DNA from: Candidatus Peribacteraceae bacterium
Lineage (GTDB): Bacteria; Patescibacteriota; Gracilibacteria; Peribacterales; Peribacteraceae
Direction of reading: 5' to 3'
Length of the DNA: 33,555 nucleotides
NCBI GenBank assembly: GCA_028707875.1
Contig: JAQWAC010000008.1
Location: forward strand, 1 to 33,555
Each line of letters starts with the position of its first letter. Position 1 is the stretch's first letter. The position numbers were made by a program, and so were the translations under genes. Shown here piece by piece: positions 4,850 through 29,725 of this stretch. The notes under the pieces were generated by a model. It made no database searches and had not been told where the DNA came from. It saw only the letters and a program-made list of their open reading frames with translations.

Positions 4850-5926
4850 TTGTACCGTTTCCGTGTGCATCCGCCTACTCGCGAATACCGCTTTCGTCAC
4901 CTGTTTCCAGATGCTCCGGCGTATCGCTTGAAGCAGATGGAGGAGGTGCTCTTCAAGCCGAACTTTTCCGGTTGGAAGGATGTGACGGTGTTTCCCAAAG
5001 AGATGCGGGAGAAGATGGAGGAGGGGATTCCGTGGATATCCGTGGAGCTCAGTCGCATGTTCGAGAGCAGGCGCGGCGATACGTTCAAGGCGATTCTGGA
5101 GACGGAGGACGGATTGAAGTTTGAGACGGTGCTCATGGGCAACGCGACGGAACAGTGGACCGTGTGCGTCTCTTCGCAGGTGGGGTGTGCCATGCGGTGC
5201 GTCTTCTGCGCCACGGGCGCGATGGGCCTCAAACGCAGTCTGACTGCGGACGAGATCACGGATCAGATCCGCTTCTGGAGAGCTTTTCTGTCGGAGCGGG
5301 GAGGGGAGGCGGGCCGGATCAGCAATGTGGTCTTCATGGGGATGGGGGAGCCGCTCGCGAATGTGGAGAATGTGAAGAGGGCGATCAACGTGTGGCTGAA
5401 GAATACCGACCTCGGTCCGACGCACATCACCGTTTCCACCGTGGGTGTGCTGAAGGTCATGGAGCAGATTCTCACCGACAGGGAATGGCCGCCTGTCCGC
5501 ATCGCGGTTTCCCTTCACAGTGCGGATCAGGAGGAGCGTGCGAAGATCGTGCCGAGCACCGAACCGGGGTTTTTGGAGAAGCTCGCGGACTGGTGTCACA
5601 AGTACGCGCAGGAGCTCGGGAACCGCCACCACCACCTCACATTCGAGTACACGCTCATTCAGGGGGTGAATGACAGCGTGGAGCAGGCGGAGAAGCTCGC
5701 GAGGTTTCTGGAAAAAGCGGGGAAGCCCAAGCTCAATGTCATCCCGCTCAACGTCGTGACCGGTAAGACGATGATGAAGAGCTCGCAGGAGCGCATTGAT
5801 CGCTTCAAGGCGGTGATCCTGAAGCACGGCATCGATGTTACGCAGCGTCGCACAATGGGTGACGATATTGCGGCGGCGTGCGGACAGCTGGCGACGCAAG
5901 CGGCGGGGTGCGAGCAGAGGAGCTAG
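4850..5926 (+). CDS. rlmN: 23S rRNA (adenine(2503)-C(2))-methyltransferase
   Basis: Radical SAM CAMRCVFCATG, VFMGMGEPLANVENV, FEYTLIQGVNDS. Start uncertain: in-frame TTG at 4850 gives about 358 aa; the upstream ATG at 4742 overlaps the divergent folD start and promoter. Confidence 0.92.
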   Translation: MYRFRVHPPTREYRFRHLFPDAPAYRLKQMEEVLFKPNFSGWKDVTVFPKEMREKMEEGIPWISVELSRMFESRRGDTFKAILETEDGLKFETVLMGNATEQWTVCVSSQVGCAMRCVFCATGAMGLKRSLTADEITDQIRFWRAFLSERGGEAGRISNVVFMGMGEPLANVENVKRAINVWLKNTDLGPTHITVSTVGVLKVMEQILTDREWPPVRIAVSLHSADQEERAKIVPSTEPGFLEKLADWCHKYAQELGNRHHHLTFEYTLIQGVNDSVEQAEKLARFLEKAGKPKLNVIPLNVVTGKTMMKSSQERIDRFKAVILKHGIDVTQRRTMGDDIAAACGQLATQAAGCEQRS

Positions 5927-10969: not shown

Positions 10970-11118
10970 GGGAGAGGGGGAAGAAATTGGGGCTCATCGT
11001 ATATCTCTCCACCTACAGGGCGAAGAGGATGCTCCGCCAAACTCAGTCATAGTGAAAGAAGCGCTTTCCGTAGTAGTGCCTATGAGGTCTACGAAGTTCA
11101 ATAAATGAATGTCGTGAA

Positions 11119-11201
11119 GGCGGGCTTTGCCCGCCTGGAGCGACTCCACATTAAGGGAAAGGATGGTTCATGGAAGGAAAACCGCAGGTTGACCTTCCAT
11201 G
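11119..11201 (-). ncRNA. Structured intergenic RNA element, copy A (3' of PurD-like gene)
   Basis: Hairpin 11169-11177/11193-11201 (CATGGAAGG...CCTTCCATG), small hairpin TGGAG-CGA-CTCCA (11136-11148), GC hairpin GGCGGGC-TTT-GCCCGCC (11119-11135). Same layout and compensatory changes in copy B near 29540-29645. Strand inferred. Confidence 0.6.
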
Positions 11202-11202
11202 T

Positions 11203-12492
11203 TTATAGGTATCCCCACGAATTCAGCCGGTCGCTGTCATCGATCCACCGGTCGCCGATGTCCGTACGGTAGTACATGTTGCTGATGAGGATGTTCTGGA
11301 TGCGCGAGTACATCTGCTTCTGCGCCTCCCGCATCGTGGTGCCGGAACCGGAGACGACGAGCGCCACTCCCTCCGCGCCGGTGATGAGCCACTCTTCGTT
11401 CTCTTTTCGCAGATCACCGATGTGAATGCCGTCGGGAACCTTCTTCTTGAAGACCACCACGGCGTCCTGCGAGAACGATTCGAAGGTCTTGGGATCCTCG
11501 AAGGGGAACGGTGGAACCACGATAAGGGCACACACCTGATAGCCGCGCTTCACTTTGATCCCGCCGTTGCTCTCGCCGGTGGCCAACCGGAGCAGCAGGG
11601 CGCCCATCGGCTCGGTGATGCCTTCCTGTTGCAGGCAGATTTGCGGATACCCGAAGCGGCAGGTGAATTCCAGCGGGTAAATACCGTAGCTGTTCACGAT
11701 GCTGTTGACATCGATGAAGCCGACGAAGTTCGACTGTGCCAGCGTCTGTTCGAACGGACGGAGCACGGTTTCAAAGATCGGATTTTTGGGCGTCCAGAAG
11801 CCGCTCGTGCCCATCTCGCCGGTGGAGACCCCCAGTTCGCCGGGGAAGAGCTTCTTGTGCTCGAAGCTCACGTAGACGGGATTCACGAATTTCTTGCCGT
11901 CGAAGAAGGCGCACACCGCCACTTCCACGCCCGTCACCTTCTTCTGCAGCTGGAAGACATCGATGGTGTCGCTCCACGTGTCGCGGTAGGCGCCGAGCAC
12001 GCGAACGACGTCGCTGCCGTCATCTTCATTGCCCACAAAGAGAAGTTGCTTGAGATTCTGCGCATCACCCGACGGTTTGATGACGTAACGGCCGGGATTC
12101 GCCTGCACGTAGGCGATGCCCTCGTCGAAGGACCGGAATTCCTGGTAGGGGATGATGCGGATCTTGTTGCGCTTGAGTTCCTCCTGACCGAACGTGCGGT
12201 CGTTCTCCAGACGGTCCGTATAGATGCTGCCTCCGATGCAAAGTTTTCCTTTCTTGCGCAGTTCCTCCGCTTCCGCGCCCTTGCCGATGTGGTCAAAGAG
12301 CACGATGTCCGCCCAGTCGACGCTCTTGCGCCAGTCCCGCACGAGGTTCACGAAGCCTTTGCCGACATCTTCAAAGCCCGGTGCCTCCAGGCAGAGGCGG
12401 ACCTCATGACCTTCGCGGGCGACGGTCCAGGCAAGATCGGTGATGGTGCCGTCGTAGGAGACGAAAAGAAATTTCTTCGGAGTATCTGTCAT
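11203..12492 (-). CDS. PurD-like ATP-grasp protein (second, divergent paralog)
   Basis: MTDTPKKFLFVSYDGTITDLAWTVAREGHEVRL..., YVIKPSGDAQNLKQLLFVG, GVEVAVCAFFDGKKF, GELGVSTGEMGTSGFW, PLEFTCRFGYPQ. Confidence 0.75.
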   Translation of the reverse strand: MTDTPKKFLFVSYDGTITDLAWTVAREGHEVRLCLEAPGFEDVGKGFVNLVRDWRKSVDWADIVLFDHIGKGAEAEELRKKGKLCIGGSIYTDRLENDRTFGQEELKRNKIRIIPYQEFRSFDEGIAYVQANPGRYVIKPSGDAQNLKQLLFVGNEDDGSDVVRVLGAYRDTWSDTIDVFQLQKKVTGVEVAVCAFFDGKKFVNPVYVSFEHKKLFPGELGVSTGEMGTSGFWTPKNPIFETVLRPFEQTLAQSNFVGFIDVNSIVNSYGIYPLEFTCRFGYPQICLQQEGITEPMGALLLRLATGESNGGIKVKRGYQVCALIVVPPFPFEDPKTFESFSQDAVVVFKKKVPDGIHIGDLRKENEEWLITGAEGVALVVSGSGTTMREAQKQMYSRIQNILISNMYYRTDIGDRWIDDSDRLNSWGYL

Positions 12493-12579
12493 CGCTGCGC
12501 GAAGACTATGCGCGTCTTCCGGGGAGTGCAAGTGCGGGTTTTTTCCGTCGATGAAAAATTTTTTCTCCAAAAGAGAATA

Positions 12580-29458: not shown

Positions 29459-29480
29459 TGGTTCGACGGGCTCACCATGA
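29459..29480. repeat. REP-like palindrome copy TGGTTCGACGGGCTCACCATGA
   Basis: Identical 22 nt at 18090-18111. Confidence 0.8.
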
Positions 29481-29537
29481 CATTGCTGTGCTCGGGATAA
29501 GCTTCTCATTCATTCGTTTCAATGGATTGTTTCATTC

Positions 29538-29559
29538 AAAAAACCGCGGCGAAGCGCGG
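29538..29559 (-). terminator. Rho-independent terminator downstream of tRNA-Pro (minus strand CCGCG...CGCGG TTTTTT)
   Basis: Stem 29544-29548/29555-29559 followed on the minus strand by six T. Confidence 0.75.
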
Positions 29560-29645
29560 GTCTCGCGGGTTCCCGCGCTGGAGCCGCACCCACTCAGGGA
29601 AAAGAGAGTTCATGAGAGAAAAACCGTAGGTTTGTCTCTCATGAA
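29538..29645 (-). ncRNA. Structured intergenic RNA element, copy B (3' of tRNA-Pro)
   Basis: Hairpin TTCATGAGAGA (29609-29619)/TCTCTCATGAA (29635-29645), hairpin CGCGGG-TT-CCCGCG (29564-29577), terminator at 29538-29559. Confidence 0.6.
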
Positions 29646-29649
29646 TCAA

Positions 29650-29725
29650 TGGTCGGGGTGAAAGGACTCGAACCTTCGACCTCACGGTCCCGAACCGTGC
29701 GCTCTACCAACTGAGCTACACCCCG
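29650..29725 (-). tRNA. tRNA-Pro (anticodon CGG), CCA encoded
   Basis: CGGGGTG...CACCCCG acceptor, TAGCTCAGTTGGTAGAGC D-arm, anticodon loop TTCGGGA, GGTTCGAGTCC T-arm, ACCA. Confidence 0.95.

Follow-up and report, generated by a model that had tools for sequence, protein, structure and literature searches.

A mobile repeat family of Peribacteraceae with a mirror-repeat linker that predicts a triple helix

Two intergenic stretches in a 33,555-nucleotide contig of a Candidatus Peribacteraceae bacterium (JAQWAC010000008.1, positions 1–33,555; the window) belong to a dispersed family of structured elements, ~110 nt long and, by our sequence searches, specific to the Peribacteraceae. Each copy in the window reads on the minus strand as a 15-bp hairpin (H1) with a UNC triloop, a linker, a second hairpin and an AT-rich tail. 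Sequence comparison establishes the family, both of its predicted hairpins and a linker that covaries with the first of them. The best account of these features, advanced tentatively and a little short of an even chance, is a mobile structured element that serves, in its transcribed strand, as a 3′-end (termination or protection) module.

Architecture of the two window copies

Copy A occupies about 11098–11201 (minus strand, as are all features below). Its H1 (11169–11201) pairs a 5′ arm (11187–11201) with a 3′ arm (11169–11183) around a triloop at 11184–11186, an assignment drawn from the sequence and from covariation over all copies. The linker follows at 11146–11168, with bases 3–11 (11158–11166) as the predicted third strand, positioned by mirror-register covariation. 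Hairpin 2 (11110–11145) comprises an outer stem, a TCCA/TTC internal loop and a short variable tip, and the T-rich tail (TTCATTTATTGA; 11098–11109) was placed using the tail profile over 149 copies. Copy B (about 29537–29643) repeats this arrangement: H1 at 29611–29643 (5′ arm 29629–29643, triloop 29626–29628, 3′ arm 29611–29625), a linker at 29589–29610 with the predicted third strand at 29600–29608, a hairpin 2 with a long variable tip (29545–29588) and a U-tract (GTTTTTTG; 29537–29544). Folding z-scores are −5.6 for copy A and −4.9 for copy B.

Copy A lies 1 nt beyond the end of a PurD-like ATP-grasp ORF (11203–12570; GARS_A, E = 2 × 10−14) and copy B 6 nt beyond that of a tRNA-Pro(CGG) (29650–29725). 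A preliminary description of the window had recognized one common layout in the two copies, directly behind these genes; layout and adjacency hold, with spacings that differ from its 2 nt and 4 nt. It gave copy A as 11119–11201, slightly too short, as hairpin 2 runs to 11110 and the U-rich tail follows. The three compensatory pair changes that it noted between the hairpin arms of A and B are present, at pairs 5, 6 and 9 of the stem, counted from its base. It saw the hairpins and overlooked the mirror-repeat linker, from which a triple helix is predicted.

A dispersed family with covarying hairpins

The source genome, a 1.32-Mb Candidatus Peribacteria assembly (1,323,417 bases, 74 contigs, 98.6% complete), carries at least 70 copies, and the stretches around them were read. 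A linker motif matches 59 times there against six for a reversed control. Covariance model R1, built from 26 copies, returns 72 matches at the stricter setting (best E = 9 × 10−22) and 133 at E up to 1, the weak ones including reverse-strand echoes of H1. The motif excess over its control, together with the model matches, argues that the element is not a product of chance.

Of the 35 other genomes of its taxonomic family covered by a search of relatives, 24 contain the element (1–40 copies each), and one further genus has 24–67 copies in each of five species. Among other families of the class, one of 23 genomes gave two weak matches; across 287 genomes of the phylum, just two single weak matches fell outside the family. 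In named genomes, 38 of 40 pattern-matching stretches are Candidatus Peribacteria/Peregrinibacteria records, and the other two (Crenarchaeota and a Desulfovibrio MAG) gave no model match and were taken as chance. IMG/VR yielded 0 matches, and carriage by viruses was rejected on that basis. Searched against Rfam 15, copies A and B and four further loci match only tRNA and RNase P RNA at the gathering threshold, the best sub-threshold matches of element loci lying at chance level. A literature search returned nothing on the element.

Across 101 distinct copies, standard pairs fill 92.5% of the pair cells (78.1% after shuffling), both sides have changed in 20 of 23 pairs, and the covariation score is 0.412 against 0.161 for shuffled and at most 0.121 for slid pairings, in an alignment that was fitted to the model and so leans towards it. 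An independent MAFFT alignment of 26 copies scores 0.341 against 0.137. For both predicted hairpins, the evidence of covariation is overwhelming. The linker (RRCYMTCYTTTCCCTNARNGG) is pyrimidine-rich and ~20–25 nt long; hairpin 2 is built of a 6-bp outer stem, the conserved TCCA/TTC internal loop and a hypervariable tip. The preliminary description had made its proposed new family depend on further copies, covariation and the lack of an Rfam match: copies are many, covariation is strong, and no Rfam family was matched, so the element is not known there.

A mirror-repeat linker predicts a triple helix

The linker that follows H1 is a mirror copy of the H1 3′ arm, and each of its positions varies in step with the counterpart in that arm. 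With stem pairs numbered from the base, 3′-arm position k and linker position k − 1 carry the same pyrimidine; the arm–linker correlation r is 0.90 at k5, 0.81 at k7, 0.81 at k9 and 0.64 at k10, and at the near-invariant positions k4, k8, k11 and k12 arm and linker agree. This mirror register stands at z = 15.6, every other register at 8.5 or below. When each of 34 distinct arm types is counted once, none of 5,000 permutations reaches the observed match. At sites shared by different genera, the linker exactly follows 26 of 50 changed stem positions, against 1–9 at other offsets. The shuffles leave the relatedness of copies in, which the register and shared-site controls address in part.

C+·G–C and U·A–U triples have just this geometry, a mirror symmetry that runs parallel to the purine arm, and the linker conforms to their pyrimidine motif, with C over G–C and U over A–U. 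The mirror copy and its covariation with the arm together predict a parallel C+·G–C/U·A–U major-groove triple helix, and we strongly infer that it spans stem pairs 4–12, in about nine triples. Watson–Crick pairing between linker and 5′ arm was considered and rejected, because the direct registers that it would use reach z = 8.5 at most, against 15.6 for the mirror register, and a reversed-arm control is weaker as well. Throughout the family, A often replaces the expected U over A–U at linker positions 4–6 (CCATCC, CCCACCC, CTATCC).

Natural RNA triple helices are found in the MALAT1/PAN ENE, telomerase RNA and the SAM-II and preQ1-II riboswitches, where a third strand occupies the major groove of a stem; ENE elements have been linked to 3′-end protection. 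The element differs from these in combining a plain hairpin with its own 3′ flank, in mixing C+·G–C with U·A–U over about nine predicted triples, in its dozens of genomic copies and in being deduced from covariation only. H-DNA-forming repeats have homopurine–homopyrimidine mirror symmetry, and the element shares the mirror symmetry (TCTCTC ATGAG CTCTCT); unlike in H-DNA, the purine strand is also encoded as the hairpin 5′ arm of the same strand, and one strand suffices. To our knowledge, long natural triple helices in bacteria have rarely been backed by covariation, and 30 or more natural variants are available for testing this one.

Placement at gene ends

We scored the placement of 167 copies, with genes called by codon usage and tRNAs by ARAGORN. 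The upstream CDS is on the same strand in 105 cases and on the opposite strand in 26. H1 starts 0–2 nt past the stop codon in 49 copies and within −9 to 6 nt in 62; none starts at 7–28 nt. Behind sense tRNAs (16 cases), 3–8 nt separate the tRNA end from H1, and in seven antisense copies the tRNA 5′ end is 5–11 nt away. By coordinate comparison, about 11 of the 45 tRNAs in the source genome have a copy at their 3′ end. Canonical terminators at the same loci start 2–68 nt past stops (median 22); they are not flush, so flush placement is special to the element, and general genome compactness was rejected as its cause. At one site (L148), orthologues with and without the element use the same stop codon. 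Antisense copies also occur in the intervening sequence of the 23S rRNA gene in several genomes (L078 at 5496–5586 and 5742–5865, both minus strand; L165, L156, L073 and L068), one of them inside a group I intron match.

The tail is T-rich over about 7 nt only, a degenerate U-tract: T accounts for 62–78% at positions 3–7 (149 copies), 137 of 166 copies have at least four T in 8 nt, and the mean is 4.49 T in 8 nt against 2.32 downstream. The element thus presents what is expected of an intrinsic (Rho-independent) terminator, a GC-rich hairpin running directly into a U-rich tract, downstream of genes and in sense. Unlike such terminators, it has a long conserved 5′ module made up of H1 and the linker, and its internal loop is conserved; the U-tract is degenerate, copies are placed flush and share the sequence identity of a repeat family, and some are antisense.

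In our preferred reading, the gene-sense strand would fold into the 15-bp H1, with its linker forming a triple helix over stem pairs 4–12. In RNA, hairpin 2 and the U-tract would end transcription, and the triplex-braced H1 would cap the 3′ end of the gene, hindering 3′-to-5′ decay and read-through. Elements would spread through an activity in trans, or through DNA transfer and recombination, and copies would be kept where they give a usable 3′ end. A 3′ processing/termination RNA module, one of two readings in the preliminary description, draws support as a predicted function from the U-rich tail, sense orientation and flush position; on the U-tract, orientation and position, a role in termination or 3′-end protection is about evenly balanced. 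Weighing against it, about 20 copies come directly after a canonical terminator that is itself complete, so that another would seem superfluous. A 3′-end role does not account for the antisense copies that are just as flush: the seven at tRNAs, some within the 23S intron and a few at the starts of genes. The degeneracy of the U-tract, and a placement tighter than that of canonical terminators at the same loci, also count against it.

Alternatively, the copies could give rise to small RNAs that are freed from the 3′ ends of transcripts, such as tRNA trailers and 3′ UTRs, and act in trans, perhaps by using the triplex domain to bind a protein. A sharp 5′ edge behind tRNA 3′ ends and stop codons, plus a terminator of its own, would yield a discrete ~110-nt RNA, and unpaired motifs are conserved in the linker (TTTCCCT) and the internal loop (TCCA/TTC). 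Dozens of near-equivalent copies per genome would be unusual for a trans-acting RNA, as would complete absence from a third of the family's genomes, and we regard this explanation as improbable.

Spread of the element

Mobility of the family is well supported. Four of 12 tested copies in genome G027 (L145, L150, L155 and L157) have empty sites with contiguous flanks in congeners. About 11 of 166 copies are flanked by a 45–86-nt repeat of the neighbouring gene end, with a truncated copy on the H1 side, ending 3–5 nt before H1, and the intact copy on the tail side; a general target-site duplication was rejected, as only these copies have one. The duplications lie at a gene start, gene end or tRNA (L059, L118, L174, L041, L042, L102, L175, L147, L099, L120 and L181) and involve tRNA-Val and coding ends resembling those of MetRS, GluRS, CysRS, CarA, a GHMP-type kinase and a radical-SAM-like protein (motifs recognized by eye); differences between paired duplicates are often mostly synonymous. 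Many sites are common to different genera, as are identical H1–linker sequence types. Elements at shared sites resemble one another scarcely more than copies drawn at random do (0.754 versus 0.718, p = 0.065), which may reflect turnover, re-insertion, gene conversion or saturation. Spread is indicated by insertion polymorphism, by the occasional duplications at the flanks and by subtypes common to genera; together with a high and variable copy number, ranging from 0 to 72 within the one family, these bear out the other early reading, a mobile structured repeat.

In cases where the gene lies downstream of the element, the reading frame opened by the truncated start commonly closes at an ATGA that overlaps the intact start. 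We considered whether translation across the element is under selection there, and rejected the idea: all seven frames checked by hand are open, but so are 51% of all element frames, and the result is not significant. In congeners that lack the element at the site orthologous to L158 (L194, L201 and L206), unrelated long hairpins stand right past the stop codon, with repeated units GGGATTAGGGATTAG, GGACAGAGGACAG and GATTTGCGATTTGCG.

No Y1 transposase, reverse transcriptase or extra tyrosine recombinase tracks copy number. Y1 transposase (PF01797) is absent from G027 (40 copies) and G012 (34 copies), with one weak match in G000, and a RAYT/Y1 link was rejected because high-copy genomes lack the enzyme. 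Reverse transcriptase (PF00078) is present in 13 of 40 family genomes and absent from G000 and the complete genome G027. Retroposition, considered because many sites resemble RNA 3′ ends, was set aside on this absence and on the antisense flush copies; a retroelement or group II intron origin would likewise call for the enzyme in these carriers. G000 and G027 each encode a single Xer-like tyrosine recombinase. No constant short target sequence, as an IS200/IS605 miniature element would show, was found: the 5′ flanks vary (WWTK, AAGG and others), with no fixed tetramer.

A purely selfish MITE- or REP-like element is a serious contender, somewhat less probable than a 3′-end module. It would act as folded single-stranded DNA, both hairpins being signals for a transposase or recombinase in trans, and gene-end position would follow from enzyme target choice and purifying selection, with no host function. 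Such an element would fit the varying copy number, the insertion polymorphism, the flanking duplications with their precise junction, the identical H1–linker types across genera, the slight likeness at shared sites and the flush antisense copies. It is harder to square with two high-copy genomes devoid of Y1 transposase, with G000 and G027 devoid of reverse transcriptase and with one Xer-like integrase only; orientation bias and a conserved U-tract would be unnecessary for a DNA signal, and the structure is intact at most sites. A mobile element defined by an extended intramolecular C+·G–C/U·A–U triple helix, in RNA or single-stranded DNA, with near-nucleotide gene-boundary placement and a mechanism unlike that of Y1 transposases, reverse transcriptases or extra integrases, is conceivable but doubtful.

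Relation to known repeats

REP repeats are palindromes of 20–50 nt tagged by an unpaired GTAG or CGTC (PMC3733652, PMC8266576), and effects on termination and mRNA stability have been proposed for REP, REPIN and BIME repeats (PMC3733652). Like these companions of RAYT transposases, the element consists of dispersed, non-coding extragenic palindromes in many copies. It is set apart by its length (about 110 nt), two dissimilar hairpins and third-strand linker, by the lack of a GTAG or CGTC tag and by high-copy genomes without any Y1 (RAYT) transposase, an enzyme not demanded for the CGTC type.

Integron attC sites offer another parallel, as imperfect hairpins with an unpaired centre and a variable tip, right past stop codons. 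Hairpin 2, with its unpaired central loop and hypervariable tip, invites a reading in terms of cassette logic, a gene plus a folded recombination site behind its stop codon. We consider this very improbable: inspection of the consensus and the listed copies revealed no RYYYAAC/GTTRRRY core-site boxes framing them, and copies are dispersed, not arrayed, and also lie at tRNAs and behind terminators. The one Xer-like tyrosine recombinase of G000 and G027 aside, no integron integrase was seen. The tests described place the element outside the REP repeats, the IS200/605 miniature elements, the attC sites and the known Rfam RNAs. It sits with precision at stop codons, at the ends of tRNAs and at terminators, in genomes that are streamlined and have no obvious transposition enzyme. 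This raises the questions of how such repeats spread and whether transcript 3′ ends are set by them in the candidate phyla radiation, a group with a barely explored RNA biology.

Short palindromic repeats are nested in some copies, in loops or junctions only, and one duplicates CATG. GCACTGTCGTTCGCGAACGACGTGC stands between H1 and the linker in L121, L138, L105 and L093, and TGGTTCGAC..CACAGG within the linker in L129 and L056; others lie in the H1 loop (L078, L077 and L055) or in H3 (L122 and L138). A short palindrome like these, TGGTTCGACGGGCTCACCAT, occupies 29459–29478 of the window.
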